This document shows, one piece after another, positions 33,349 to 52,634 of a stretch of DNA of 64,000 bases. The position numbers were made by a program, and so were the translations under genes. This DNA comes from Magnolia sinica (taxonomy: Eukaryota; Streptophyta; Magnoliopsida; Magnoliales; Magnoliaceae). Every line of letters begins with the position of its first letter. The stretch's first letter is position 1. The DNA is taken from positions 84,286,862 to 84,350,861 of the forward strand of contig NC_080584.1 of the NCBI RefSeq assembly GCF_029962835.1, written 5' to 3'. The notes beneath the pieces were generated by a model. It saw only the letters and a list, made by a program, of their open reading frames with translations. It searched no databases and had not been told where the DNA came from.

Positions 33349-33693
33349 AAGCTCCTGGGGATCCATTGAGCTTCGTGTGTTATATCTGCTATGTTCATCC
33401 ATTTCACCAGCTCATTTTAGGAGTTTAGCCCAAACATGAGGCAGATCCAAAGCTCAAATGGACTACGCTACAAGAAATAATAAAAAATATTGAATACACA
33501 TCTTTGAGAACTTTTAAGGGTTATAGAATTTTAGACCAAGTTTATAGTTGTGATTTTCCTTAGAGGATGGCAAATTAATATCATGGTGGAGCCAAGGAAA
33601 GTTTCAAAAGTGTGCATGACTATATATTCATACTGTTTCATGTGGTGTGGCCTACTTAAGCTTAGAAATTGCTTCATGTTTAGGATTATACCC
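33349..33693. mobile_element. Foldback MITE copy H, left part, split by the retrotransposon
   Basis: Left arm AGCTCCTGGGGATCCATTGAG and inner strings CAAAGCTCAAATGGACTACG and CATGTGGTGTGGCCTAC. It stops at GGATTATACCC where the LTR retrotransposon begins. The remainder, TAAAATAAGTAGGAGAATT and the right arm ending near AGAGCTGAGG, resumes at 52550-52634. Removing the retrotransposon and one TACCC restores a continuous family member. Confidence 0.8.
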
Positions 33694-34061
33694 TGTAGAC
33701 ACCCCACCCAGGCTAATATCTCGAGAAGGCTAAGACAGTTCAAAAACCATGCTCGTATCCTAAACCGAACCCGAATCTCAGCCTAAACTTAACCCTAATC
33801 CCAACCTAAACCGAACCCTAATCTCAGCCTAAACTTAACCTTGACCCAAAAGTCTCCAAATTCCCAAACCGAGACCGAAAACCTTGATCCAAACCGTTCA
33901 ATCCACACACAGCCCCCGCCTATACCTTATACCTTGACTAGAACCCTTTTACCCAAGCCTAAACCCTCTATTTGAGCCATAAAACCCTAAAAGAATACTA
34001 CCGACCGAACCGACACAACAAACAAAGCCCGCACGCGCGAACCTGGCCCGAACGCGACCAG

Positions 34062-34124
34062 GGCGGTAGTCTGATTGCCACGGGCGGTAGTCTGACTGCT
34101 GCGGGCGGTAGTCTGACTACTTCT
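34062..34124. repeat. Three tandem 21-bp near-palindromic units
   Basis: Units start at 34062, 34083 and 34104, each beginning GGCGGTAGTCTGA. They lie about 240 bp upstream of the LTR TATA box and are followed by TTGCGGTACT. Confidence 0.9.
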
Positions 34125-34361
34125 TGCGGTACTTCGAATGCCGCCGCTTGTAACTCGCGTGTGGATAGCCATCCCAACGTCCAAAAGTCAACTTTTCCCT
34201 GGATTTACCCCTCTCATCTCCACTATTTACAATTTTACCCGCCTCAAGAACCAATGAGAGTGTGCCATATGGCATCTCCATCCCCTCCACGAACCACCAC
34301 TTGCCACCTCACCTTTCAACCCTCTCAAACCCAATAATTACAGTAATGCCCTTGGAGAAGG

Positions 34362-34371
34362 CTATAAATAG
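34362..34371 (+). promoter_or_regulatory. LTR TATA box
   Basis: CTATAAATAG in the context GAAGGCTATAAATAGCCCTC, conserved in the 3' LTR at 51704-51713. Transcription should start about 30 bp downstream, near CATTTCAACAAG. Confidence 0.75.
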
Positions 34372-35207
34372 CCCTCTCCTCTTCTCATTTCAACAAGCCT
34401 CAACAACCAACAATCCAAGAGAGTGAGAGAGAAAGAGAGTGAGAAAGAGAGTGAAGGAAAGGGAAGGAGCTCCCAAGCCTTCCAAGTTCAAATCTTTCAA
34501 AGCCACCCCCTTAGCCTTTCCTCCTGACCTCTCCAACCCATCCAACTTAGCCCAGTTTGATCATGGTTCAGTCTATGTCTTAACCTATTTAAGAATCAAG
34601 CCAAGGATCCATCATCCTATAAGCATTCATCATGACATCCACTCCCTTCTCAACCCCTCTGCTTCTTTAGATCTCTAGTGAACGTATGCTCTATAACTTG
34701 CCATACATCGGATCCTGTCACATTAGAAATTCCTAGTGATTTAGTCCATTTTTTACCTTTTTACATAAGCATCATCACATCCGCCTTCTAAACACGTCAT
34801 TGGACGTATGCTCTGTGGCTTGCCGAAATCTCAGATCTTTCTGCATCAGAAATCCGCGTGTGTGCTTAGTCATGTCTCGACCACATCATTCATCCCTTGA
34901 GATTGTTTTACCACACAAAGTAGAGACCATACATTCGTACAGACAGAGAGGATGCCTAATACCTTCCCTCTTTGTAACCAAGTTCCCTTACCAGGAATCC
35001 CGAATCGTAAACCAGGAGTCAACTTAAGGTAGGAGGGTTTTCGAATTTCTCCAACCTTACGTATTTCGTGGTTCTAGCCGACCGCAGGATTCTGAGATTA
35101 TTCAGCTAGTGGCGACTCCAACATCCACAAATCATCTAAATCACCCCCCACCACCAAAACCATAACTTTTAAACTAGCATGGGTGCCAATTTTCAGTGTC
35201 TACAGAA

Positions 35208-35225
35208 TGGTGACTCCACTGGGGA
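35208..35225 (+). other. Primer-binding site
   Basis: TGGTGACTCCACTGGGGA, three bases after the 5' LTR. It starts with TGG, as expected for pairing with a tRNA CCA end, and resembles the tRNA-Arg site described for Ogre/Tat elements. Confidence 0.7.
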
Positions 35226-35359
35226 ACTGGTAGCTCGCACTAGCTGAGACCTGACTTGAAAGTGTGTGGTACTTCAATTTCAAGGGAAATCATCATTACA
35301 CTCATACAAAAAAATAAATAAATCTATGGCTTGTTCTTTCTTAGGTACAAATTTAAACC

Positions 35360-37790
35360 ATGACCACTCGATCCCGCGCAGCCATGGCCTCTCAAGCTAC
35401 CCATGAAGAAGAGTCAGCACCTCAACCAGCTCCCGAAACATCCACACCCACACCTACATCATCACCCGCACTGCTACCACCAGTATCTCCAACAGACCCT
35501 CAAGCCAACAACACCATGCAAGAAGTGGTTCAAAGTCTTCGAGCAATGCAAGAGCTACTACTTCGCTTAGTACCAAGTGTCACATCGAATACACAGGCAA
35601 CCCAGCCTAGTGTACAGAACAGTTCACTCCCTTAGACTCCATTTGTCTTCTCCCTCGTTCCTCCGGCAAATCCCGTACTCTCTCTCTCCCAGAACAATTA
35701 GCACAAGATCAACAACAGACAGCAATCGGGAGCAACCCTCCCACACATCTCTACTCAGCACAACACAACAATCAGGTTACAACATAAGTTCCCCTCCATG
35801 GGAACCACAAACAAGAACTGGCGGATGCCCATGAAGGAGGTCAGTTTGGAGTCCAACTCACTCCCCCTAATGGGAGTAACATTCCGGATCTGGCAGATAC
35901 CCTAGGTGGGAGCCATTTTCAAACATCACACCCTCCTCCAAAAGGGAGCGGCGTTCAATTCCATCTACCTCCGCCACCGGGAGTCCACCGTCTTTTCAGC
36001 AACCCCCCATTCTTGATCCATACGAAGAGGATGCAACACAAGCCCTACAACAAAGGGCAAGATACCATCCGCAAGGCAAGTATGAGATTGAAGAACTACG
36101 AGAGCAGCTACAAATGGTGCAAAATCAACTCCAAAGGCAGCAAGGAGTGGACCACCCGTCCACCAAATTCAGGGACCTTTGTCCCTTCCCAAACGCCCGG
36201 GTACCTCCAAACTTCGAGGTACCAAAATTCAGAAGGTACGACGGTAGTAGGTGCCCCACAGCACATCTGAAAGCACTTTGTGGGAAACTCAATGCGATAA
36301 CAGGGAATGATGGAGCTTTGATACGGCTCTTCCAGAAATCCCTTAAGAGTGATGCTTTGGATTGGTACACCTCACTAGATAGTCATCAAACTTGGGAAAA
36401 CTCTCCCAAGCATTCATTGAAAGGTTCTCATACAACCTGAATATGGCTCCAAGAAGATCTGACCTGGCTGCCTTGAGACAAAAAAATGATGAATCCTTAT
36501 CAGCATACATAGGACGATGGCGAGCCATGACGGCTCGAATGAGAAACCACATCGATAATGAAGAGCAGATATCCATGATTGTACATTCAGCAAATCCCAT
36601 CATTTCAAGATATCTAATCTCGTATCCATACTTAAATTTCTCATAACTCATCCGAGCCGGAGAACAGGTGGAAGCTGGAATCAGGGCTGGGACCATTTCC
36701 CCATGGCCACACTAGACCCCTTCAATCAAAAGAAACAAAGTCAAAGGGAAACCCATTGGATATGGGAATGGAAACAGCACTGCTCCCATGCAACGCACTA
36801 CGAAAGTTAATAACATCGCCACCAATACTCAAGGCAGCCAATATGCTCCACAATCGGAGCCACGACAAGACAGACAATACCAGCCACAATCAAACAGGCA
36901 GTACCAACCATAGCAAGCCCAACAGGGATATCAGGCACAGCCATATCAACAATAATCGCAACAGCCTAGGGGAAATGCATAGGATCCACACAAGCAGGCA
37001 ATGTTAGGAAGGAATTTCATCCCTTTAGCACAAACATACAGTCAAGTTCTGACAATGCTAATGCAAAAGCAACTCTTAACACCACTCCATCCTCGACTTC
37101 CACCTAATCCCTTGCCACCTAGTTACAATGAAAATCAATACTGCACATATCACCAGGGTCCTGGCCACCTAACGGACCGCTGCTTCACTTTGAAACATGC
37201 AGTCCAAGATTTAATTGAGAGCCAGAAGATTGCGATCACCCAACAGGCCAACAATATAGCTCAAACCAACATTCTCCAAAATCTTCTGTCATCGTATCAA
37301 GCAGGACCCAGCACACCCAACACTTCTACCGTCAACCACATTGAGGGAGGACAACCCGCGTACTCCTCTCCACATCACTCCATACAAATAATCATGCCCG
37401 ATACAGCAAATCGGACATGGGGATACAAACAGGCCCCATCACCTGGGCCACAGGTATTCCTTGAAACAACACCAACAACAGTCTCTCATATTTTTGGAAG
37501 TAGCACTAACAACACCGCCTCTCGTAATCCTTGAAGCAGCACCCAATAGGTCACACCCTCAGCATCTCACCCCCCAAGGGACACACCCAACTCCATCCTC
37601 ATTACATCTGAAAAGGTCGAATTCTGAACCCGTTGTTCTCCCGATAAGTCTCCCTGATCTAACCCCGCTAATCCTGCAAGGGGCACCCCCGATTCAAGCC
37701 CCAAAATTTCTAATGCCTCACCAACTGGCACATGCCCAGAGGACCTTCCCCACACATCAAGTGGAGGGAAAAAAAAAACCCCAATGTTAA
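35360..37790 (+). pseudogene. gag of the Tat-type retrotransposon, broken
   Basis: Capsid/nucleocapsid precursor, first ATG at 35360 (MTTRSRAAMAS). The N-terminal part (35360-35635) is Pro/Thr-rich and stops early. The capsid domain is readable at 36114-36400 (RVPPNFEVPKFRRYDGS, LIRLFQKSLKSDALDWYTSL), then shifts frame and continues at 36392-36646 (QAFIERFSYNLNMAPRRSDL). The nucleocapsid-like motif CTYHQGPGHLTDRC (C-x2-H-x5-H-x4-C) lies in 37001-37534, followed by LKHAVQDLI, as in other Tat gags. At least two frameshifts and several stops interrupt it. Confidence 0.85.
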
Positions 37791-37955
37791 ATCTCACCAA
37801 GGCTTGGTAATACCTCAAAAGAAATCATCAAGTCCATCACAAATAATTCCAGCCACAACTCCTTAGCTTCAAGAACCAATGATATACCTGGAAGGAAAAA
37901 CAGTTCCCTCTATGACCTAAAAGCAGTCCCATGGCATTACCCAAAATGCGATGGA

Positions 37956-38480
37956 GTGGGTAGCAACGAGAGGTATTTCAGGAAAGATAGCCCGAACCCA
38001 AAGGAAACTTGTGGAAATTTATCGAGAACCACTTACAAAACTGATGTTGCTTATGATATAGCAGCCCAACTCAAAGCCATTCCCGCACAAATATCCATCT
38101 GGGAACTTTTATCCACGTCGAGATATCATAGAGAAATCTTTGCGAAAACATTGAATGATGCCCATATCTCTCCTGATGTTCCCCCCGAAATGGTGGCAAG
38201 TATGATTGGACAACTCCTCGCACCACGGGCTATCACTTTCTCCGATGAGGAACTACCGCCGGAAGGGCATAAACATGGACGCTCACTAAATATAGTTGCC
38301 CGTCACAAGAATTTCAAAGTCTCACTCGTGCTTATTGACAATGGATCCAGTCTTAATGTTTGCCCTTTAAGGACTACCGAAAGGTTAAGGAAAGAACCGT
38401 CTTCCTTCAGACCTAACACCACGAGCATCAGAGCCTTCGATAATTCCCGAAGACAGGTGGAGGTAGAAATCGACCATTAA
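37956..38480 (+). pseudogene. Aspartic protease region of the retrotransposon
   Basis: Residues AQLKAIPAQISIWELL and APRAITFSDEELPPEGH lead into the protease core VLIDNGSSLNVCPL (DNGS in place of DS/TG, usual for Tat elements). The frame stops at 38480 just after the flap region. A degraded protease-to-RT linker follows to about 39060, still recognisable in pieces but full of stops. Confidence 0.8.
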
Positions 38481-39060
38481 TTGCAAATTGGACCAGACAT
38501 GACCCTTGTCACGTTTCAGGTCATCGACATTCCTGCCTCTTTAACCTTCTGTTAGGGCAGCCATGACTCCATGCTGTTGGAGCCATCCCATCTACCCTCC
38601 ATCAAAGGGTTAAATTCCCTCTGGGAAATCAAATCATTTCAGTATTAGCCAAGTCACAAACCATCCTACCGGTGACGGTCAATATCCCAGAAACCGACAT
38701 CCTAGTGATTGACGTTCAGCATACAGAGGGTGATATATCGTATCACAGTTTCGAATTTGAAAATGTGAATGCAATCACCAATCCATGACCCCTCTTTGCT
38801 GAATATGTCATCCCTCCTTTTGAACGATTAATCCTGAACTATCATACCAAATTCCATGAAAAAAGTATGGTGGTAAACCAGCACCTACCAACGTACAGAG
38901 ACGGGGACTCGGATATCAACTGACACCAGAAGATCAAGCTAAAAGGCCCAAAAAGGGTCAATCGTTTGAGTGCACACCCATCAAATTCATCAAGGCTGGT
39001 ACAGTTTGTGGAGACACGATGATTTCCTTTGAGGACCACCTTCAGCGGCTCAAACTCTCA

Positions 39061-39847
39061 GATCATGAGTCTAGCTGGCCACTGATAAGGTGAGATAGGA
39101 TCCTCAGGGTATCAAAAGCACATTCGAAGCCAGGGTTAGAACCTCCAGACCCACCACATGAAGCTAGGGGCAGGGAAACAGGGTTATCCACAGGAGACCC
39201 AGAACCAGGAATGCCCCTTGAAAAGGACGCAGGCAAGAATCAAGAGACACTTATCTACACCCATAGCCAAGGAGACTCATCCCCATCACCAGTACAGCGA
39301 CATAAGAGGAAAAAATAGCCCATCCATTGGGTTGACATAGGAAAATAGCCTGCCCTTGACTGGACGAATGTCAAGGTCCCATCATCGGATGAACCTGAGG
39401 AGTTAGAAGAACTCTAACCCCTAGGCGAAGAAATTGAATAAGATTCCGACTCTGAGCCCAGCCCAGCAGACATCATGGTCATCGAGACAGGTGACCCTCA
39501 GGAATAAACAGGTCAGAACAGCAGGATCGAAAGGGGGAAAGAACCGCGATGGTTAGCCATCCCCCTAACAATCGAATCAGCCGGTGAACCATCCATTAAT
39601 GCCGGCCTAAAAAAAATGCTAATGTAAATAGCAATTGGTATTCCGAACTAGGGCAAGACCAATCATGGTTCGTAATACCGTCCTGTTCGGGACACCTCGA
39701 TGACACAAAAAAAATCAGAAAATCTTCAAAATACAAAAACATCACATATTCTAAAAAAATACAAAAAAATCAAATATTCCTCAAAACCACAAAACATCAG
39801 AAAATCTTCAAAATACAAAAATAATAGAAAAACTTTCAAAAATCATT
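39061..39847 (+). other. Protease-RT spacer of the retrotransposon, possible intron
   Basis: Stop-rich and strongly A-rich towards its end, with the phrase TCAGAAAATCTTCAAAATAC repeated at about 39714 and 39800. Ogre elements are known to splice an intron between protease and RT, so this may be its equivalent, but I cannot assign splice sites. Confidence 0.35.
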
Positions 39848-41460
39848 GTGCCAAACACTTCACATACAGTGCCTGAGTTTAAGGTCGACTCGTACGATTT
39901 CGATTTAGAGTTGGACTTCGAACTCATGGGTTTGGATGAAACATTGGATGAGGGAAATGATGATACTGCTCTCGAATTCAAGGATTCTCTAGAAAAGTTA
40001 GAAACAAAGGCCAATGTTGTAGGAGACGATTTCGAAATTGTAAACTTAGGGTCAACAGAACTCCCCAGAGAGGTGCGCATCGGAAGATCACTGTCCCCAG
40101 AATACAAGCAGAGGATGATGGAATTTCTGAAACCGAGGTTGTCTAACTTTGCTTTCTCTTATGAGGACATGCCAGGGCTCGATGAAAATTTGGTGGTACA
40201 CCATCTGCCAACAAAGCTTGACATGAAGCCTATCAAGCAAAAGTTACGGAGAATGAAACCAGAATGGGCCCTGAAGATCCGTGATGAAGTCATTAAAGAA
40301 TACAATGCGTGATTCTTGGAAGTCTCCAACTACTCAGAATGACTCGCAAATATCGTACCAGTTCCAAAGAAGGATGGGAAAGTCAGGATGTGCATCGACT
40401 TCAAAGATTTCAACAAAGTAAGCCCCAAAGATGACTCCCTCTACCTCATATCGATACACTGGTAAATAATACTACTGGACACAAGATCTTCTCCTTTATG
40501 GATGGCTTCTCAGGCTACAACCAGATCAAGATGGCCATTGAAGATCAAGAGAAGACTTCTTTCATCACTCTATGGGGAACTTTCTGCTATCAGGTTATGC
40601 CCTTCGGGTTGAAAAACGCCGGAGCCACATATCAGCGAGCCATGACTGCCTTGTTCCATGACATGATAAATAAAGAAATGGAAGTTTACATGGACGATAT
40701 GATCGTCAAGTCTCGTACGATCGAAGGGCACTTCGAAGACCTCAAGAAGCTCTTCGACAGGCTAGAAAAGTTCAAACTTCGTCTCAATCCGCAAAAAATT
40801 GTATTCGGGGCAACCGAAGGCAAGCTGTTAGACTTCATTGTCAGTGAAGATGGTATCCGGGTAGATGAGACCAAGACCAAGACAATCATTGAAATGCCAC
40901 CACCCAAGACTGAAAAAGAAATTCGGGGCTTCCTCGGGCGAATCCAGTATATCAGCCGATTCATCCACAGCTCACTCCGGTCTGTGAGCCCATATTCAAG
41001 CTACTACGGAAGAACTCTCCAAAGGAATGGAATGACGACTGTCAAGCAGTCTTCGACAGGATCAAGAAATACCTGCTGAATCCCCCAATGCTCATGCCAC
41101 CTACTCCAGGTAGGCCATTACTGTTGTATATCTCCGTCGCAGCAGAAGCAATCGGGTGCGTTCTTGGCCAACACGACGATACTGGAAGAAAAAAGCGAGC
41201 GATCTACTATCTAAGCCGAAAATTCACAAACTACGAAGCCAAATATTCCAACTTGGAAAAGACACGCCTTGCCATGGTCAGGACAACATAGCGGCTACGA
41301 CAGTATATGATCGCTCACCTCATCATTCTACTTGCTCGCATGAACCCGTTGAAGTACTTGTTCGAAAAACCAGCACTAATGGGCAGGATAGCAAAATGGC
41401 AGCTACTGCTTTCAGAATTTGACATCACATATATCACCCAGGAGGCAATCAAGGGGTAAG
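39848..41460 (+). pseudogene. Reverse transcriptase and RNase H of the retrotransposon
   Basis: The N-terminal RT part is at 39848-40312 (LPTKLDMKPIKQKLRRM) and ends at a TGA. After another TGA the fingers continue as IVPVPKKDGKVRMCIDF at about 40350-40400. The palm is at 40498-41079 (FSGYNQIKM, MPFGLKNAGATYQR) with the catalytic YMDDM box at 40687-40701, and thumb residues GFLGRIQYISRF. A frameshift follows. The RNase H domain at 41088-41291 reads YISVAAEAIGCVLGQ and IYYLSRKFTNYEAKYSNLEK; its next stop is at 41289. The YMDDM residues are intact, but no continuous protein can be made. Confidence 0.9.
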
Positions 41461-41489
41461 CACTGGCCGATCACTGAGCAGCACACTCC

Positions 41490-41984
41490 TTGCCCAATTA
41501 CCAACCATTGAAGACCTTCTTCCCTGACGAGGACATTCTCTTGATTAAAGAAGAAAAAGAAATGAAGGCAGGAGTGTGGACACTCTTCTTCAACGGAGCA
41601 ACAAACTCGAAAGGGAGTGGAGTAGGTGTCATACTCTACTCTCCCGAGGACGTCCCAATTCCCATATCCAGAAGGCTGGCATTCCAATGCACTAACAACG
41701 TAGCAGAGAATGAGGCATGCATCGCCGGTCTAAGAGAAGCCATCATCCTCAACGTGAAGAAGTTACGAGACTTCGGTGACTCACAACTCATCATCAATCA
41801 AATAAAGGGCGATTGGAAGACCAAGGATGAAAAGCTGATCCCTTATCACGTGTATCTAGATAATTTAATCGAAGAATTCAATGAGATCGCATTCTCTTAC
41901 ATGCCCCAAGTCAAGAACCAATTCGTAGACACTCTGGCTACCCTCGCCTCAATGTTGGAGATCCCAAAAGGAGTGGCTGAATGA
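41490..41984 (+). pseudogene. Second, archaeal-type RNase H domain of the retrotransposon
   Basis: An uninterrupted frame (the annotated start codon may not be the true one, because the domain is internal to pol). GVWTLFFNGATNSKGSGVGV, NNVAENEACIAGLREA, DFGDSQLIINQIKGDWKTKD and KNQFVDTLATLASM define the extra RNase H that marks the Tat lineage. The first acidic active-site position reads Asn (AAC at 41592-41594, FFNGA) where this fold uses Asp; the Glu, Asp and final Asp positions remain. The domain is probably inactive in this copy. Confidence 0.85.
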
Positions 41985-43316
41985 GAACTCACTGTCGAGC
42001 TCCAGGAAGAACTTGCATTCTGCTACAGATTGACGAAGCTGAACCTCCCTCAAATGATCAGCCATGGTACACAGACATCAAGGAATACCTCGAACATCAG
42101 AAGTACCCGGAAGGAGCAACACCAGTTGATCGACGCACCATCCAACGGCTAGCGGCACAGTTCGTGATCACTGAAGGCATCCTTTACAAGCGATCCTTCA
42201 ATCAAGTCCTTCTCCGCTGTGTAGACGAGACTGAAGCAGTACAAATCATGTTAGAAATCCATGAAGGACTATGTGGCCCATACATGAATGGACATATGTT
42301 GGCAAAAAGATTCTACAACTCAGCTATTATTGGCTTACAATGGAGACAGATTGCTGCAAACACGTTAGGAAATGCTTCAAGTGTCAAGAACATGCAAACC
42401 AGATCCATACGCCCCGCTTCTAAACTCTATAACCTAACATCACCATGGCCCTTCTCTGTATGGGGATTGGACATCATTGGTAAGGTCAGTCCCAAAGCAT
42501 CAAACGGGCATGAATACATCCTGGTGGCAGTAAATTACTTCACCGAATGGATAGAGGCAACATCATTCACCTCAATCACAACCTCTCACGTGGTCAAGTT
42601 TATGAAGAACAACATCATTAGCCGATATGGGATCCCTCATGTCATCATCACAGACAATGGAACTCCGTTCTTCAATAAAAAGGATGGGTGATTTCCTCGA
42701 CAAGTTCAAGATTCAACGCCACTGATCAAGCCCCTACCGTCCTCAAATGAATGGCGGGGTCGAAGCTGCAAACAAAACTATCATTCGCATACTGGAGAGG
42801 ATGGTGAAGACATATCGTGATTAGTCAGAAATGCTTCCCTACGCACTCTGGGCCTATCGAATGTCTGTACGTTCTGCTACAGGTGCAACTCCATATGAGC
42901 TCGTATATGGAATAGAAGCAGTACTACCAGTCGAAATCGAAATCCCATCACTACGGATGCTGCTGGAAAGTGAGGTCGAGGAAGGTGAATGGCAACAAGC
43001 AAGGTATGATCAATTGCATCTGGCAGATGAAATGTGCATGCGAGCGCCAAGCCATTCTCAGTGTTAACAAAGAAGGATCGCTCGAGCCTATAATAAGAGG
43101 GTCGGAAAAAGACGCTTCAAGGTCGACGACATGGTCATGAAGCGTATCTTGCTACCACACTTACCAGATCTCAGAGAAAAATTTAAACCCTCATGGGAAG
43201 GACCGCTGATCATTCGTGAAGTACTCCAAGGAGGCGCTCTTCGACTCACCAACCTAAAAGGGGAAGATATTCACGAGCCCATCAACGCCGATAGTGTGAA
43301 AATTTATCACGGGTAA
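41981..43316 (+). pseudogene. Integrase of the retrotransposon, broken
   Basis: Zinc-finger histidines lie in LEIHEGLCGPYMNGHML. The cysteines (CFKC, 42373-42384) are present only in the +1 frame, so a compensating pair of small indels surrounds them. The core shows VWGLDIIG (first Asp), IITDNGTPFF (second Asp) and YRPQMNGGVEAANK (Glu), with a frameshift near 42685 and stops near 42724 and 42823. The C-terminal half continues at 42831-43067 (LWAYRMSVRSATGATPYELVYG) and 43131-43316 (FKPSWEGPLIIREV to SVKIYHG). Integrase is the last sense-strand domain. Confidence 0.88.
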
Positions 43317-44378
43317 CCATACCTGACTTTGTCAATAATTACAATCGCAAAGCTGCCCCTTCATTTCCACCGAAAATAAAAAGTATATATATCCGCCACC
43401 TCTCCTATCAGAAACACACGTCGTCTCTCCCAAAATCGCAAAAAAAGAAGAAGAAGAAAATCGCAAAAAAAAAGAAGAGGAAAATCTCAAAAAAAAATAG
43501 GGAAAAAACAGAAAAAAAAAAGTAGAAGAAAATCCCAAAAAGAAGACCCAGAAAGGGGAAGTCGATACGACATCCCCAAACAATCCAACCAAAAGCAGCT
43601 TACAATTGTATTCGAAGACAAAGAGAGGAAGGAAACTAGTTGGCCGGCTATGAAGGAAGTCCATCCGTCACTCCCAGCACTACAAAAAAAAACAAAACAA
43701 AAAGAAAAAAGGCATGCCTAAGCAGAATGGGCGAGTTGAAAACTTAAAAGGCGGCTCGAGTAAAAACAGCGGGCATGTAGCGGACTTGGTGAAAACTCAA
43801 AAGGGCGCCAAGGGTAAAAACAGCATAGCTACCAAGGGGCAGGCAAGATAAAAAACTTGGGATATGGTGAAAATTCGAAAGGACGCCATGGGCAAAAATG
43901 ACGAGAAAGCTGGACGTGGTGAAAACCTGAAAAGGCGCTATGGGCAAAAATGGCAAGAAAGAAATAAAAAAACAAACAAAAAAAGTACGGGTAGAGAAGA
44001 AGCCGAGGCAACAAGCACCGTAATGAGATACAAGGAAAAATCAACTTCGGTCAGTACTCTATCACACCCTGCTCAAATCTAGAGAATGCGATCCCAGACA
44101 CCCTCTTAGGAAACCAAGATCCTAAGAACACAATCTAGACTACTGCGCACAATGTGGGCTAAGCCCAAGATTCTAATCCCAATCATCTAAAACACAAATC
44201 CAAACACAAGCAAACACTAGCAAATTTGGCACGAACAAAATTTTATTTTCTATGAAAATCTTTTTTACAAATACTTTACTTTCTTTCTTCATAAAAGCAA
44301 AAACAAAATTTTCTCATAAGTAGATGGTCAACATCGGGAATTACAGGTAAGCTCCTATCTCTCATATAGCGACAATCT
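43317..44378. other. Post-integrase spacer of the retrotransposon
   Basis: Non-coding and A-rich. Between about 43735 and 43955 the phrase GGTGAAAACTCAAAAGGCGCC recurs four times in diverged form with GGGCAAAAATG, an irregular tandem repeat. Confidence 0.5.
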
Positions 44379-46712
44379 CTACCTGAGCCTCTCTACCTCC
44401 ATGCGCAGGTAAAAGGCCTCATCCCTATCTAGGCGATGTGCCACAAGCATGCTCTTATCATACCGTCGTCCCACTGCCAGAAGGGGAGCCATATCCTCAC
44501 ATGTGTGGCGAAGGACAGCGATCTCGAAGATCAGGTGACCATGTGTGGCTAGCAAAAAGGACAGATCGATGAAAGGGCGCTCCTCAAAGGCCTTAAATGA
44601 ATCAACGACACATGAGGAGGATGAAGAGTGTCGCCTACTATATCCTGATCAGCAGCCTCGTCAGCCAAATACCAGCCAGGGACCTGTGGATAAAGTGACT
44701 ACTCCACAACCCATCGTTGATACGGTACTGTCGCCAGGGGAGGAGCCCAAGACTCGAGATCCAGAGTTGTGGCATCCAAGGAGCCTTGCCAGGAAATCTA
44801 GACTCATCTATACAAGGCAGTCAAATCGGGAGGAAAAGAAGCATGTCCAAATTCAGAAAAGGCGAACTCCGGAATATCCTGCCAAAAGCAGAACTAACGA
44901 AGGAATCGCACGGGATGGTAAGAGCAGTACCCCCGAAGACCCAGCAACAGCAAGGGAGTGCGAGCTGCACTACAAATCAACGACTAGCGACAGAGCCAGG
45001 TGGCCTCCCAACTAATCTCCCACCCTCGAAGCTGAGACAGCATGCGGCGGTACAATGACTCAGTGGCCTTAGCACCAAGGGGAAGGCCATCAAGCAATAA
45101 AGACAGCACATCGTCGTGGTAGGAATCGGGCCATACAAGCACAAGGGTCATATAAAAATATTCCCACAACCATACTTAGGAGAGGAATAAACCCAGCTCA
45201 AGTTGCAAGCAGAAAATGAAGCAAAGGAAGAAATCAGAGCAAAGAGTACCTGAAGAAAAGAACAACAACCCCAGAGAATACGAGTGTGTCCAAGCGAGCA
45301 TTCAGTAAGCCCTAAAAAGAGCTTCGACAACACTACAGAAATGATACTACTGCGATGCAAGACACGACGAAATACATCTAGCAAAGCCGCCAATGATGAC
45401 TGCTGCCAAACTGAGAAAAGCAGCTGAGCCAGGACACAAAATATCAGTAAATTCAGACACTGAAACTGGCGATCTGATCCAGGGCCACCTCGGGAGGTAG
45501 AACAACGATCGTACAAAACCTCAAGCGAAAGCTCGCTCGCCCTACCCTCAGCAGTAGGGAGAGCAGTAAAGAATCCGAACCAGGAGATCAGATCAGAAGA
45601 ACGAACCGGTTCAGACGATGGCACGTAAGGCTCCCGGGTAAGAGGAAGACCAGACAGGCGTGAGAACTCCTCCAGTGACGGGCCTAGCTCCAGATCATTA
45701 AAGGAAAACAGATTCAGAGACGGAACCCAGTCATACGACACCGCACTCAATAGTCGTCAATCTAGGTGAACTCGGTGGAAGTGGAGAACCTCCTGAAAGC
45801 CCAAGGAACTCAGCTCGAAGATCTCGGACTCGGTCAAGCTCTCTATCCAAAGGTGCAGACGCTCTGAGCAAGTACTGCGAGGCTGCAGCCGACAAGTACG
45901 GACAGGCATGCCCTCCACAATCTGGGTCCCCAGGTCAATGGGGGAATCATCAAAAATAGGCATCCCCTTGTCTAACAAGTCTATCTCGTGGTGGTGGAAG
46001 AAGCCAGCCTCGCTCATCGCATCACGTAAGGTGTCCTGGAAAGCTGCAACAGGCGGGTCCGAACCGCCGATAATCGCCACCTCAGGAGCAGTCTAAAAAA
46101 CACAAGCCCTAGGAGTGCAACACCCAAAGTATCCCAATGGCTGACAGGACCTGCACCCTGGATCCCGACAGTAGTTGACTGTCCCATCAATGCCCCGAAA
46201 TCTGCACCAAAAATCTGACCAAAGCCATCTGCAAGGAGTACGTCACCTGCCAAGTCCAAACCGCTCGAGTCGCCAAAGTGGGACCCACCACCTATCAAAG
46301 CCTGATTCGTCACACCTACGTCACCCATCACCATCATACTATCCATCACCATAATGCTATCATCCACCCCACCCATAATCATCCCTCCATCAATCAAGCC
46401 ATCAGTCGCCATTATCGCACCTTCCTCACCATTCAAACCATCCATCCTCACCATATCAACACCTGCAAATCCTGGTGCCCCATTTGGTGTGGACACATCA
46501 AAAGCATCCAATCTCATCAGCCCATCCCCATAACCACTATTGTTGGAGGAGAGATCCAAGCCATAAATAGCATCTACCTCCTCAAAAGAACCCATCATTC
46601 CTCCACTAACCTCCATCAATGCCTCCCTAAATGGATCCTCTCCATCATTTATGGGCCCACCAACCTTCCCACCATTCAGGGACCCACCAACCCTCACATT
46701 AGGACTGACCAT
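44379..46712 (-). pseudogene. Antisense PMD-like unit 2 of the retrotransposon
   Basis: Runs opposite to gag-pol. It begins with ATG at 46712 (MVSPNVRVGGSLNGGKVGGP) and a long Gly/Asp/Met-rich region to about 46100. TTTTTTAG then precedes ACTGCTCC at about 46096, a likely intron acceptor. The next part (46080-45757) leads through one TGA to LLSAVSYDWVPSLNLFSF and LGPSLEEFSRLSGLPL, a plant-mobile-domain-like (aminotransferase-like) signature, and on to LVFCVLAQ/GCCSFLQVL-type helices by 45148. The C-terminal tail is readable at about 44545-44379 (FEIAVLRHTCEDMAPLL to FYLRMEVERLR, then TAG). Splicing in between is unresolved. Not intact. Confidence 0.6.
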
Positions 46713-46907
46713 AATCAATAAAAAAAGGGAGGACAAAAGAAGAAAGGAACAAAAAGAAAAGGACAAAAAGAAGAAGAATGGGATAAAGAAAACAATCGGA
46801 CGGCCAGGGCAGGACGAGAATAACAGAGGAGAAACAAAAGGAATGAACAGAGAAGAGAGAGTTTGATGGAAGAAAAGATGAATGGCGACGGTATTCTGAT
46901 TACTGCT

Positions 46908-47036
46908 TGCGGTACTCCAACCACTGCTGTTAGATCTGACATTCTTGCATAAATGCAGCACCTGACAAGATAGAACGGGTGACAAAAGTCAATAGGCGGT
47001 AGTCAGACTACCGCCGGTGGTAGTCAAACTACCGCC
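46908..47036. repeat. 21-bp palindrome pair and TGCGGTACT box between the antisense units
   Basis: 46995-47015 is a perfect palindrome: GGCGGTAGTC, a central A, then its exact reverse complement. 47016-47036 is a second unit with a few mismatches. TGCGGTACT at 46908-46916 and its neighbours match the segment that follows the 21-bp units in the LTR. The block lies upstream of antisense unit 2. Confidence 0.9.
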
Positions 47037-47219
47037 CAGGGCCATTTTCGGATGAAAATCGAGCAGTGTCCACTTCAAAGGGCCGGGACCTCATAATACA
47101 CCTCCATTGGATCGCGAAAATGATCAAAAGATTGACCCAGAAGGCAATATGAAGCGACTGATGTTTCATATAAACACAGGATTACATAGTTAAGGTACAT
47201 GATTACATAATGTAAGGAA

Positions 47220-48725
47220 CTAATCGTCATCAGGAATATAAGCGTCCGTATCCTTGTGATGAAAATGGGGCCCCAAGATCCCTCCTCCAGCAAAACGTGC
47301 GCCGCCACCAGGAGCGTAGCCAGACTGCAAGATCGGACCAATGTCGTGCTGCTCACACCAAGAGTACCCTCTATCCAGATCGACGAAGGCACTGACGTCA
47401 AAACCCTCCAAGGCAGCGACCAACTCTCTCTCAGGGACAGATCTCCAATCAGATGGACCTGAAGGCAGACTAAGTGGCACTAAGGGACTACCAGTCAATT
47501 GCCAAAAAAGCCTCTCCCCAAGGTACCACTTTGTCACACATGGATCCTCCAGAATGCAACGGCATCGCGAGGCTTGAAAAGCCTCCTAAGCTCTAGGAGT
47601 AAGCGCCGCATTCGATCGAAGATACGACCTGGTATGGAACTGCAAAAAAGGAGAAAAGTCAAGGGTTGAAAGATGAGTGAAAAAGTAATACATGGGCAAC
47701 ACAAAATAAGGTAAATCACTTACATCATCAAGGACAAAGGCATTGATGTTCGACCTCCATGCAAGATCAGAAAACAGACGCGTGTGGCTGTGGTTATCCT
47801 TGTACCACGACATCATGAGAGGAAAGGGAGGCGAATGATCAATTAAGGTAGGTGCTAAGTGGGGAAAGTGGTCGAAAAAGTAGACCTGCGTAAAAATGCA
47901 ATCAGAGGAGGACATACCACACCATCTCCAGAAACAACAGTGCAGAAAAGACATCAAGAAGGTACCTCGATGACTGGGTAAAAGCCAGTCAGGGATCGGC
48001 TGATACAACGGCTGGCCTTGTCTAACCCTTCATACAAATGGGCTAGGAGAGCCGCATTCCAGTTAAACGGTATGGGAAAGGTGATGTCTGCCACAAGCGA
48101 TAATAGGGGGAACTCACAAGCTTATACCCGTGGCAGAAGATCATCGCTCCCATAGTGTACAAAATCAGGGCACGAGCCTTCACCACAACCGCAACTTCGG
48201 TCTTAGGGATCCGCCTGACGAAGTTCGATGATAGCTAGAGAAGTTTGAATCGAGGACCAGTAAAATCTGTGGCATATGGCATCATCCCCAGTAATTCCAT
48301 CCAGTCGTCCTCAGAAGGTACCGAAAGGTCATCCTCGAAGGGGACGGATCCTCCATCATATCGAAGACCCAGCTGCATATATATATATCGTAAGGAGTGA
48401 TCCCCCACTCCCCAAAAGGTAACTAAAAGGTGTGAGTCTCAAGGTGCCACCGTTCGGTCAAGGCAGACAAAAGGGACATGTTCGTCTTGCTTAAACCAAC
48501 TTGAAAAAGGTGGGCAAATGGAGTGCGCTCCAATACCTCAAAGAATAGAGGCTGCGGATCATGGAACTAATCGGGCCAATGTGTCCTAACCCCTCGTCCT
48601 CTCAAGATCGCGGGCGCGCCACCCTCCCGGGCTATGTCAGACAGGTGTCGGCCCTCTTGTGGTACATAACACGGATCGGTCAACTAACGAGAAGGACCAG
48701 CCTCATTTCTCCTACGATGAGGCAT
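47220..48725 (-). pseudogene. Antisense PMD unit 1 of the retrotransposon
   Basis: Starts at ATG 48725 (MPHRRRNEAGPSR). The region LFQVGLSKTNMSLLSALTERW, then HLETHTF, one TAG, LPFGEWGITPYDI and (after a shift) LGLRYDGG is a classical plant mobile domain signature. It continues with VVKARALILYTMGAMIF, ALLAHLYEGLDKASR, then two probable introns, FPHLAPTLIDHSPPFPLMMSW and the tail WYLGERLFWQLTGSP to DTDAYIPDDD (TAG at 47220). Three in-frame TAGs and at least one frameshift break it. PMD proteins include MAIN/MAIL1, and PMDs are known to occur in retrotransposons; its role in the element is unknown. Confidence 0.72.
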
Positions 48726-48771
48726 AACTGCACAAACAAGTTCTATAGATAAGTATCCTCCTCACCACCTC

Positions 48772-48905
48772 AAGGCCCATTTCAAAAAGCCCATGTCAAT
48801 GCCCATTTCAAAATGCCCATGTCAAGGCCCACTTTAAAAAGCCCATGTTAAGGCCCACTTCAAAAAGCCCATGTCAAGGCCCACTTCAAAAGCCCATTCC
48901 AAGGC
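48772..48905. repeat. Five tandem copies of a 26-bp unit
   Basis: Consensus AAGGCCCACTTCAAAAAGCC plus CATGTC; the fifth copy is 25 bp. It lies directly upstream of antisense unit 1. Confidence 0.95.
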
Positions 48906-49346
48906 TCATCTTCCAAGGATCATCATCCACACATCCATGCCCACAATAAATCCATGTATCTGGACATGTCAAGATCATGATGTGGGGCCCACTTGGAAAA
49001 TCCCATCCGTCCATCATCTACAAATAGCCGACCATCAAAATCTACACCATCCATACACTCAAGTGGGCCCCAGATCATTCACCCAATGGTCCAAATCATC
49101 ATCAAAGTTTTCCAAATAAAGGGGCTAAAAAATAAACAAAGTTCTAAGGATGGGGCCCCTTTCTTATCACACCCCACCCCATCAAAAACAAAAAAAAAAA
49201 CAAAAACAAAAAAAAATGAGGAAAAAGTCCAACCAACAATCTGGCCCAAAACAAAAGAAATCAACAAGATCCAATGGATCAGATTCAAATGAGATAGTCC
49301 AACGGACCCGATCATTGCCCTCCTAAGGTCTATGAAGAAATCCAAC

Positions 49347-49434
49347 CCCCCCCCCCCCCCCCCAAAAAAAAAAAAAAAAACCTTTAAGTAACCGGTTCAG
49401 CAAGAAGAAACCCTTAATCAAGATTACCAGAAAT

Positions 49435-49465
<31 letters not shown>

Positions 49466-49510
49466 AGAATCCAAGCTGAGAATCCACAAAAAAAAAAAAA
49501 AAAAAAAACT
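49347..49510. repeat. Poly-C/poly-A tract, (AC)n and poly-A microsatellites
   Basis: About 17 C then about 18 A (49347-49380), an AC run (49434-49461) and a poly-A run (49488-49508). Homopolymer lengths here may be sequencing-sensitive. Confidence 0.9.
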
Positions 49511-51080
49511 CCACTCAAAATAGCTCCAGGGACCACAAATGGGGTCCCTGGACATCCCAACCGCTGGATTCAAATAAGGAAGAAGGCTACATCAGTTGGA
49601 CCGGTGCGTGGCTCGGACCACTGGACCAATGAGCGGACTGGCAGTAGCCAGACTGCCATAGGCGGTAGTTCGACCACCACCCGACCGAAAACAGTCATAG
49701 GGCAGCGGGCCTGTCTCCAAGGGCGATTTTGAAGGACCGGATTTCCCCTTTGATCGTTGGATAATAACCTCACAAGAGGACAAATAATAATAATAATAAT
49801 AAATGAAAAAAATGGAAAACAAACAAAAAATATGTATAATATAATAAAAAGTTCCTCTCAAAACCTCATGGCAAGTTCAAATTCTCGCGAGAAATTAAAA
49901 ACTGCTGGAAAATAAAAGGAAAATGCAAAAAACGAAAAAGAAAATATATAATAATGTATATATAAAACAAAAAACAAAAATAAAAAAATATATATGTATC
50001 ATATATTATCCTAAAATAAGATCCCCATGGAGTTTAAATAAATAAATAATAAAAATAATAAAAAAATGGACGATCTCAACCACCAGTAAGATCGGACAGA
50101 TCTTTCCAAAATCCAAAAATATTTCAACAACTTATTAGAGGAAGCCATCTAACCTTTTTACAAATAAAAAACTAAATGATGATGCCTACCTGTGAGATCG
50201 AACGGATGTTTTCCAAAAAAAAATGTGTGTTTTTAAATAAAATCTCTAGAGAGTCGAGTTTCAAAGAGATAGTTTTCAAAAGTTTTTCAAAGACGCACGC
50301 AACTCGTAGTACATTGAGGAATCTTTCATATTCTCCAGTTGCGGTCAGTGAAAATAGTTAAATAAGATTCGATCTATTCCTGTTTTCCCAGTGGATGATC
50401 GAATCCGTACATGATACATGTGCGATTGCCCCGACCTCTATACCTGGACAGTCGTACAAATGCTGGTAAAAATGATTGGATCTATCTCTGGAAAGAATAG
50501 TCAAACTCAAAGTGACAATAATCCATTGTAACTAAGTATCAAAATCAGCAGACTGCATGGCGAAAGATTACCTGCACATACCTAGTCTGGGATGTTCGAA
50601 AAATTTGATCGAGTCCAAGTCGGCGTAGTGAGTTCCCCGTAAGGCCGCACCAACGGCAGGGCAGCTAACCACTTTGACGATCAAATGAAACGAATACTCC
50701 TAGGGTGATTACGTATCAAAGGAAACGACAGACCAAATAGTATGGGAATCCTCATAAAGCCGCGACAAATGCGCAGAGGCCCTTACTTTTCAGACTTACT
50801 CTCCAATGTTATCAATAATCTGAAGTGAAAGGGTTGTGATTGGTGACCCGTAAAGCCGTAACAAATGCACGGGGGACAATCACAATGTTTTTCTCAACCC
50901 TCGTGATATGTGCAAGTCATCTTCTTTCCAAACGCAAGTCATCTTCTTTCCAAACAATTAATTGAAAATGATACAATAGCAGACAACAGATTCGAATCAC
51001 TACCCTTGCTGACCAGAAGGGTGGGGTGTCCACTCGCTTTGGCCTTTGGTTGCTTGCAACCTCGGCCAAAGAGAGGCATC
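49511..51080. other. 3' untranslated region of the retrotransposon
   Basis: No gene seen. It includes the 21-bp unit pair at 49640-49681, an AT-rich low-complexity stretch (49780-50060) and, just before the 3' LTR, the purine-rich AAAGAGAGGCA at about 51068-51078, the likely polypurine tract. Confidence 0.6.
49640..49681. repeat. Two tandem 21-bp units upstream of antisense unit 1
   Basis: GGCAGTAGCCAGACTGCC... at 49640 and GGCGGTAGTTCGACCACC... at 49661, exactly 21 bp apart and related to the LTR and 46995 units. Confidence 0.8.
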
Positions 51081-52549
51081 TGTAAACACCCCACCCAGGC
51101 TAACATCTCGAGAAGGCTAAGACAGTCCAGAAACCATGCTCGTATCCTAAACCGAACCCTAATCCCAGCCTAAACCGAACCCTAATCCCAGCTTAAACTT
51201 AACCCTGACCCAAAAGTCTCAAAATTCCCAAACCGAGACCCAAAACCTTGATCCAAACCGTTCAGTCCACACACAGCCCCCGCCTATACTTTATACCCTA
51301 ACTAGAACCCTTTTACCCAAGCCTAAACCCTCTATCTGAGCCATAAAAACCTAAAAGAAGACTATCGATCGAACCAACACAGCAAACAAAGCTCGCACGC
51401 GTGAACCCAGCTCGAACACGGCCCGGACGGTAGTCTGACTGTTACAGGCAGTAGTTTGACTACCTCCTGCGGTACTTCAAATGTCGCCGCTCGTGGCCCG
51501 TGTATGGACAACTGTCCCAACGTCCAAAAGTCAACTTTTCCCTAGATTTACCCCTCCCATATCCACTATTTAAAGTTTTACCGGCCTCAAGAACCAATGG
51601 GAGTGTGCCATGTGGCATCTCTCTCCCCTCCACCAACCACCACTTGCCACCTCACCTTTCAACCCTCTCAAACCCAATAATTACAGCAATGCCCTTGGAG
51701 AAGGCTATAAATAGCCCTCTCCTCTTCTCATTTCAACAAGCCTCAACAACCAACAATCCAAGAGAGTGAGAGAGAAAGAGAGTAAGAAAGAGATTGAAGG
51801 AAAGGGAAGGAGCTCCCAAGCCTTCCAAGTTCAAATCTTTCAAAGCCACCCCCTTAGCCTTTCCTCCTAACCTCTCTAACCCATCTAACCTAGCTCAGTT
51901 TGATCATGGTTCAGTCTATGTCTTAGCCTATTCAAGAATCAAGTCAAGGATCCATTATACTATAAGCATTCATCATGACATCCACTCCCTTCTCAACCCC
52001 CTGCTTCTCTAGATCTCTAGTGAATGTATGCTCTGTAACTTGCCATACATCGGATCCTGTCACATCAGAAATTTCTAGTAATCTACTCCATTTTTTACCT
52101 CTTTGCATAAGCATCATCACATCCGCCTTCTAGACAAGTCGTTGGACGTATGATCTGTGGCTTGCAGAAATTTTAGATCTTGCTGCATCAGAAATCCGCA
52201 CGGGTGTGTGCTTAGTCCTGTCTCGACCACATCATTTATCCCTTGAGATTGTTTTACCACACAAAGTAGAGACCGTACATTCGTACGGGCAGAGAGGGTG
52301 CCTAATACCTTCCCTCTTTATAACCGAGGTCCCTTACCAGGAATTCCAAATCGCAGGCCAGGAGTCAACCTAAGGTAGGAGGGTTTTCAGATTTCTCCAA
52401 CCTTACGTATTTCGTGGTTCTAGCCGACCGCAGGATTCTGAAATTATTCGGCAAGTGGCGACTCCAACATCCACAAATCATCCAAATCACCCTCACCACC
52501 AAAACCATAACATTTAAACCAGCGTGGGCGCCGATTTTCAGTGTCTACA
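51081..52549 (+). repeat. 3' LTR
   Basis: 1469 bp, 42 bp shorter than the 5' LTR. It has two rather than three 21-bp units (51426 and 51447), and the TATA box at 51704-51713 is conserved. It ends GTGTCTACA, followed by the TACCC duplication. Confidence 0.95.
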
Positions 52550-52634
52550 TACCCTAAAATAAGTAGGAGAATTAATGGATGAACAACATGGATATAACAT
52601 ACACATGCACCATGGTTAGACCCATAGAGCTGAG
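52550..52634. mobile_element. Foldback MITE copy H, right part
   Basis: Continuation of the element interrupted at 33693, starting with the second TACCC. Confidence 0.75.

Follow-up and report, generated by a model that had tools for sequence, protein, structure and literature searches.

A 21-bp near-palindromic unit recurs in the long terminal repeats and upstream of two antisense genes of a Magnolia retrotransposon and probably forms a shared cis-regulatory module

We analyzed a 64,000-nucleotide stretch of the Magnolia sinica genome (assembly GCF_029962835.1, contig NC_080584.1, positions 84,286,862 to 84,350,861; the whole stretch is hereafter called the window, and its first letter is position 1). 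It harbors an old, partly broken Ty3/gypsy retrotransposon in which a 21-bp near-palindromic unit is repeated in tandem in both long terminal repeats (LTRs) and upstream of two antisense genes. The element spans positions 33694–52549 and is flanked on both sides by a 5-bp target duplication, TACCC (33689–33693 and 52550–52554), which, like the LTR ends, was read from the sequence. The 5′ LTR (33694–35204) and the 3′ LTR (51081–52549), both on the + strand, are made up of blocks that are 89–92% identical to each other, and the 5′ LTR carries a TATA box, ctataaatag (34362–34371, + strand), which lies within one of the best-conserved LTR stretches. A reverse transcriptase piece (40435–41079; RVT_1, 3.6e-24) lies upstream of an integrase core piece (41981–42691; rve, 6.1e-8), both on the + strand, an order that, together with the two LTRs and the target duplication, is that of Ty3/gypsy elements. 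As in Tat/Retand elements, a long region with antisense open reading frames (ORFs; 45148–48725) separates pol from the 3′ LTR. The putative Tat/Retand label follows an initial annotation of the window and this overall layout.

The initial annotation had described nine units with exact 21-bp spacing, at 34062, 34083, and 34104 in the 5′ LTR, at 46995 and 47016 before antisense unit 2 (AS2), at 49640 and 49661 before antisense unit 1 (AS1), and at 51426 and 51447 in the 3′ LTR. A rescan of the window recovered all nine at these places and with this spacing, and raised the count to 13 units in 21-bp register: 4 in the 5′ LTR (34062–34145), 3 in the 3′ LTR (51426–51488), 4 at AS2 (46887–46928 and 46995–47036), and 2 at AS1 (49640–49681). 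An 18-base consensus allowed up to 3 mismatches returned 9 rows in the window, corresponding to 7 of the 9 originally described units (2 being read on both strands) and all falling within the element, against a mean of 0.01 over 100 dinucleotide shuffles. The units at 49640 and 51426 are weaker, with 6 of 21 positions mismatched in each. The unit at 46995 is indeed a perfect palindrome (10/10 pairs), and the others of the nine form 4 to 8 of the 10 pairs, with the minimum of 4 at 49640 and 51426. The placement of the arrays was also borne out: the LTR units lie upstream of the TATA box, found at about 34363, 218 bp past the last 5′ LTR unit, and the 46995 and 49640 pairs precede AS2 and AS1, respectively.

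A TGCGGTACT box, thought to accompany three of the four clusters, is present at those three but is not a separate motif; it starts a diverged in-register unit at 34125, 46908, and 51468 (6, 7, and 8 mismatches, respectively). Since another unit, at 46887, immediately precedes the 46908 box, AS2 has two pairs, of which pair a (46887–46928) repeats the order of regular unit and box unit seen in the LTR, and pair b (46995–47036) consists of the perfect palindrome and the unit at 47016. With up to 7 mismatches, all unit matches within the 64 kb sit in the arrays; at 8, six background matches appear elsewhere, and the unit at 51468, being at this background level, is therefore counted only through its register and its LTR counterpart at 34125. 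The window has 5 matches to a relaxed core, G[TC]AGTNNNACT[AG]C, and each of them lies inside the arrays.

Across the whole genome (1,838,573,281 bases, 1.84 Gb), the 18-base core with up to 2 mismatches matched 850 times on the forward and 837 times on the reverse strand, compared with 74 and 68 matches for the reversed control, and a tandem pattern gave 51 + 44 rows compared with 11 + 15 for its control. All 95 tandem rows were listed and correspond to 87 distinct places, 8 of them read on both strands. The spacing is 21 bp in 84 rows and 42 bp in 5, with one row each at 18, 19, 20, 23, 36, and 37 bp, and thus has the constant phase expected of a cis-regulatory repeat that binds dimers. A stricter symmetric tandem core, GTAGTNNNACTAC taken twice, had 137 matches genome-wide, each read on both strands, against 1 in the control. 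The first 8 exact single matches to be fetched all lie in LTRs of related elements. Among 40 tandem places, chosen by hand rather than at random from the 95 rows in their order up to contig C11, 27 fall in U3 (the unique 3′ part of the LTR), 12 at AS2, 1 at AS1, and none elsewhere, AS1 being undercounted because the pattern requires a T at position 6 that AS1 units often lack. The rows passed over were mostly places already included, some were skipped without reason, and one, C7:782409 (spacing 36), was chance-like. Thirty-four of the 40 places align to the U3 or AS2 of the window element at about 66–88% identity over at least 60 bases, some of them mainly across the array. The six that align over the array alone turned out, as 3-kb loci, to be five U3s (L129–L133) and one AS1 position (L134); beside the array, the sequence of four of the five U3s (L129 and L131–L133, not L130) is unalignable to the window element. 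No place outside the element was found among the 48 examined (8 single and 40 tandem), a small and nonrandom sample. Some unit pairs form a larger inverted repeat in which units 1 and 2 are mirrored (L146, G000 C5:653023, and C3:101712011); in L146 this is the additional pair that precedes the main LTR array by 79 bp. In a cross-species check of viral contigs, the tandem pattern had no matches and a reverse transcriptase search found no relative.

Related elements were then scanned, as the initial annotation had proposed. LTR, AS2, and AS1 copies were found by similarity to three window regions, and a unit was defined as a match with up to 4 mismatches, C being allowed at position 6 and G at position 16. 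Units are present in 36 of 37 LTR copies, a set that includes the window's own 3′ LTR and eight motif-fetched copies (L001–L008), and at both antisense promoters, in 20/20 AS2 and 29/29 AS1 copies; a 21-bp pair was found in 35 LTR, 20 AS2, and 23 AS1 copies. Dinucleotide shuffles of the similarity-found copies never contained a unit (0/1,720; 0/980 for AS2 and AS1 alone). Relatives of 68–87% identity have units at each of the three positions. A bias-reduced LTR sample consisted of 40 LTRs taken at even steps from 100 listed of 430 matches to a 17-base TATA anchor; the 100 cover contigs C1 to C4, and a few of the sampled LTRs were already in the other sets. In this TATA-picked sample, 38 of the 40 LTRs have a unit, mostly about 230–295 bp upstream of the anchor, and pairs spaced 21 or 42 bp occur in 32 (shuffles, 0/800). 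Extra units occur 78–79 bp upstream of the main array in six of these LTRs and 86 bp upstream in L154.

The comparison of units with their flanks, also suggested initially, had a divided outcome: the regular LTR unit is better conserved in the TATA-picked sample, but not in the sets of close relatives (see below). The identity of the regular unit in the TATA-picked LTRs is 0.788, compared with a flank mean of 0.647 (standard deviation 0.086), and exceeds 97.5% of 362 flank windows (92.8% when transitions are ignored). Columns with at least 95% of one letter number 9 of 21 in the regular unit, 2 of 21 in the box unit, and 67 of 402 in the flanks. T6, A7, T9, A13, C14, and C17 never vary among the 36 regular units kept, the cutoff being 6 mismatches in the stretch searched; four of the 40 LTRs had no such unit, and a filter of this kind favors conservation. 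These positions, together with the information peak, define GTAGT-N3-ACTAC as the most informative core, which is dyad-symmetric around the center of the unit. The W-box motif, TTGACT, was considered as a general reading of the unit and rejected because a copy contains it only when positions 10 and 11 are both T.

The 5′ part of the AS1 coding region lies on the − strand at 48030–48725, with its ATG at 48725. It matches the PMD domain at 3.7e-8 in the window, stops being read as X, and at 1.5e-8 in a relative, both values just under the Pfam cutoff. Divergence among AS1 copies by codon position is 0.128/0.160/0.269 (23 of 29 loci), compared with 0.226/0.222/0.180 (28 of 29 loci) in an adjoining control, which argues for past protein constraint on AS1; only 2 of 40 indels are multiples of three, as expected of dead copies. 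The first ORF of AS2 (46014–46712, − strand) encodes an acidic, low-complexity protein rich in Gly, Met, and Asp (43 acidic and 11 basic residues in the relative L181), and its ATG is kept in 10/10 relatives. It has no Pfam match, and a search of solved structures with an AS2 relative gave nothing meaningful (best E 0.99); the product might function as an activation domain. A further antisense ORF (45148–45756, − strand) has weak matches to DUF7745 (2.9e-4) and PMD (0.051), both below the curated cutoffs, and is either a later part of AS2 or a separate unit. No match to TRP28 was found in five antisense pieces of the window (E ≤ 0.1) or in four ORFs from relatives (E ≤ 1), several of the pieces being broken or partial. 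In this the antisense ORFs scanned here differ from those of typical Retand elements, in which, according to the available part of the source, an antisense TRP28 (Transposase_28) domain is found in 97% of clusters (Vicient 2025).

Other repeats accompany these genes and the LTRs. An inverted repeat, CCAGGGACC/GGTCCCTGG, at 49527–49552 lies in the most conserved stretch near AS1, downstream (on the − strand) of a TATA-like TTATTTGAA at about 49572–49582; it occurs at 96 places in the genome with up to 2 mismatches and may form a hairpin in the leader of the AS1 RNA. Tandem 26-bp units (48770–48913, 5.5 copies) that lie upstream of the AS1 ORF are unlike the 21-bp units in sequence. Near the LTR start, a 23-bp tandem repeat (33759–33834 and 51146–51206) contains AACCCTAA words, which we take to resemble the telobox.

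We consider it fairly probable that the 21-bp units are sites of a symmetric dimeric factor and form a shared cis-regulatory module coordinating the sense and antisense promoters. The module had been put forward in the initial annotation; the symmetric conserved core fits a dimer and the three positions are kept; the separate TGCGGTACT box has fallen away. A symmetric, dimeric, sequence-specific DNA-binding factor would occupy each unit. The units are two helical turns apart, a spacing that aligns consecutive symmetric sites along the same side of the helix, so that neighboring dimers would share one DNA face. The arrays would act from U3, about 230–295 bp upstream of the sense TATA box, and from upstream of the two antisense genes, and this stable U3 distance, together with the position before both genes, suggests one factor for three promoters. 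Such a factor might jointly switch, or tune, the output of genomic RNA and of both antisense proteins. Binding, dimerization, cooperation on one face, and promoter activity are what we infer from the arrangement. A cis-element common to the sense and both antisense promoters suggests joint regulation of three transcription units, and the 21-bp unit offers a ready probe for finding the factor.

For the identity of the factor, we slightly favor a host transcription factor over a product of the antisense genes acting on its own element. The latter would make a self-run circuit, a possible but rather doubtful arrangement that we propose by analogy, in which an antisense-gene protein would bind the palindromes of its own antisense promoters as well as those of U3 and would activate or un-silence all promoters simultaneously. 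The binder could be the product of AS1, which is PMD-like, or that of AS2, which is acidic, acting with a DNA-binding partner, both products being candidates only, and the element would then sense its own expression, in the manner of Tax/HBZ of human T-cell leukemia virus type 1 (HTLV-1) or VANC of the VANDAL transposons. The finding of no place outside the element among the 48 would suit a dedicated element factor, although that sample is small and nonrandom.

Several observations weigh against the units being conserved protein sites in a shared module. Among close relatives, the units rank between the 20th and 82nd percentiles of flank windows and are thus no better conserved (41st to 88th when transitions are ignored). 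With gaps counted as differences, the units at 34062, 34083, and 46995 drop to between the 0 and 8th percentiles, among the worst windows, since copies differ in unit number. Conservation of the box unit is unremarkable even among the TATA-picked LTRs (59th percentile), and 33 of the 362 flank windows match the nine near-invariant columns of the regular unit. Pair b of AS2 is reduced to a single unit in 7 of 20 copies. The AS1 and AS2 copies came from queries containing the units, and the tandem places were selected by the motif itself. The first ORF of AS2 displays no codon periodicity among relatives, so that codon constraint is not shown for it. Finally, the predicted RNA folds of the arrays are very stable (z −5.73 for 34062–34145, −6.82 for 46995–47036, and −3.05 for 49640–49681).

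This stability speaks for a function at the RNA level, in which the units would serve as hairpins of the genomic RNA, in packaging, stability, or export, and the DNA repeats would be merely their template; the genomic RNA does carry AS2, AS1, and the 3′ U3 in sense. Joint changes at pair 6/16 point the same way: among 117 units of five classes, 11 are changed on both sides, compared with an expectation of 3.8, and 9 of these still pair. The units were, however, collected with T or C free at position 6 and A or G free at position 16, which leaves this pair freer to vary, and related copies inflate the count. The exchange of T-A for C-G at this pair alters both half-sites alike and occurs in U3, AS1, and AS2 copies; in our reading of these sequences, it may reflect a symmetric protein site with two half-site forms. 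At the nine other pairs, double changes number 0 to 4 in the 117 units, close to the expected 0 to 4.4. Apparent covariation at pair 8/14 was discarded, since it came mostly from box units and was near chance without them (3 vs 2.1). One-sided changes often break the pair (33 of 47 at 1/21 and 23 of 37 at 3/19), the inner core is near-invariant in sequence rather than covarying, and the constant distance between unit and TATA box better fits a promoter element. We regard the RNA-level function as unlikely; the symmetric core and the near-chance double changes at nine of ten pairs favor a DNA-binding dimer over an RNA hairpin.

The units could also be a mutational by-product without a selected function, born and homogenized through gene conversion, slippage, or template switching in the course of reverse transcription. 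The two LTRs of this very copy have different numbers of units (4 vs 3), the number varies in 21-bp steps among relatives, the order of regular unit and box unit is common to the LTR and AS2, and there is little extra conservation among relatives. Such processes fit less well with the occupation of three places without clear flank homology, with the arrays in four diverged LTRs (L129 and L131–L133) whose adjoining sequence does not align, or with the stable TATA distance and the better-than-flank conservation that the regular unit shows among TATA-picked LTRs, and we judge this origin quite improbable. A single recent event that copied a segment of U3 into both antisense regions, to be inherited passively thereafter, can be largely dismissed, for although a 28-bp stretch across unit and box is common to the LTR and AS2 and 2 of 19 comparisons among the LTR, AS2, and AS1 array flanks (both involving the LTR downstream flank) gave p 0.01 and 0.025, the other 17 gave p > 0.1, and the three positions are filled in relatives of 68–87% identity. 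The flanks of the three promoters are thus not clearly homologous, on which ground duplication of a larger U3 piece as a recent event was rejected, and any copying was not recent. The two objections foreseen in the initial annotation, absence of the units from the antisense promoters of relatives and a single recent duplication, are both unsupported by these results, although the antisense copies were retrieved with unit-containing queries. In view of the 28-bp stretch, we think it probable that short units spread by copying between these places long ago and were retained there, a seeding that is compatible with dimer sites.

Among known systems, the nearest include tobacco Tto1, in whose LTR promoter Takeda and colleagues reportedly described, in 1999, a 13-bp cis-element. 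That element is repeated and is bound by a host MYB protein, and Tto1 belongs to another superfamily; it is an LTR cis-element driven by a host factor, likened here by its description. Unlike the 21-bp unit, the Tto1 element is not known to be common to antisense promoters. The 21-bp repeats of HTLV-1 are reportedly not head-to-tail, and bZIP proteins bind as dimers; HTLV-1 is an animal retrovirus, and its sharing of a 21-bp unit length with the plant element is probably a coincidence. In the portion of the source available, the HTLV-1 LTR elements are Tax-responsive, bound by bZIP proteins, and regulated by virus-encoded proteins, of which HBZ is negative and antisense (PMC506788). Virus proteins act on those repeats, whereas action of an element protein on the plant units is proposed by analogy only.

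In the VANDAL/VANC system of Arabidopsis, as far as the available text of the sources goes, a short anti-silencing motif lies in non-coding regions and undergoes gain and loss of tandem repeats (PMC5735166, PMC10398659); the VANC21 motif, YAGTATTAY, has 9 bases and forms dense same-orientation arrays, and its binding by VANC has been shown (PMC5735166). Here, likewise, a short motif is enriched in the non-coding regions of one transposon group, all 40 hand-picked tandem places falling in U3, AS2, or AS1. VANDAL is, however, a DNA transposon with proven VANC binding, and the present element is a retrotransposon with a putative factor. Antisense genes between pol and the 3′ LTR are found, as here, in Grande and in Tat/Retand elements (PMC7264820, PMC11963269, in part), and gene23 of Grande, which is antisense and has its own upstream promoter and a nuclear product (PMC7264820), provides a precedent for separate antisense promoters. 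The available parts of these two papers leave open the function of the antisense genes in large Tat-type plant retrotransposons and describe no palindromic unit common to U3 and antisense promoters. The DOWN promoter motif marks genes that need the PMD proteins MAIN/MAIL1, binding by PMD proteins being unproven in the portion available (PMC7156037); AS1 is likewise PMD-like, a likeness of description.

In the open-licence literature, represented mostly by listings, we found no description of this motif or of a unit shared by U3 and antisense promoters, and a search with letter variants of the 13-base palindrome core returned only an unrelated thyroid peroxidase paper. The kinds of part are known, namely LTR cis-elements and virus- or element-encoded regulators of repeats; the motif and its sharing between U3 and antisense promoters appear to be a new variant. 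If the factor were encoded by the element, the arrangement would give plant LTR retrotransposons a counterpart to Tax or VANC.

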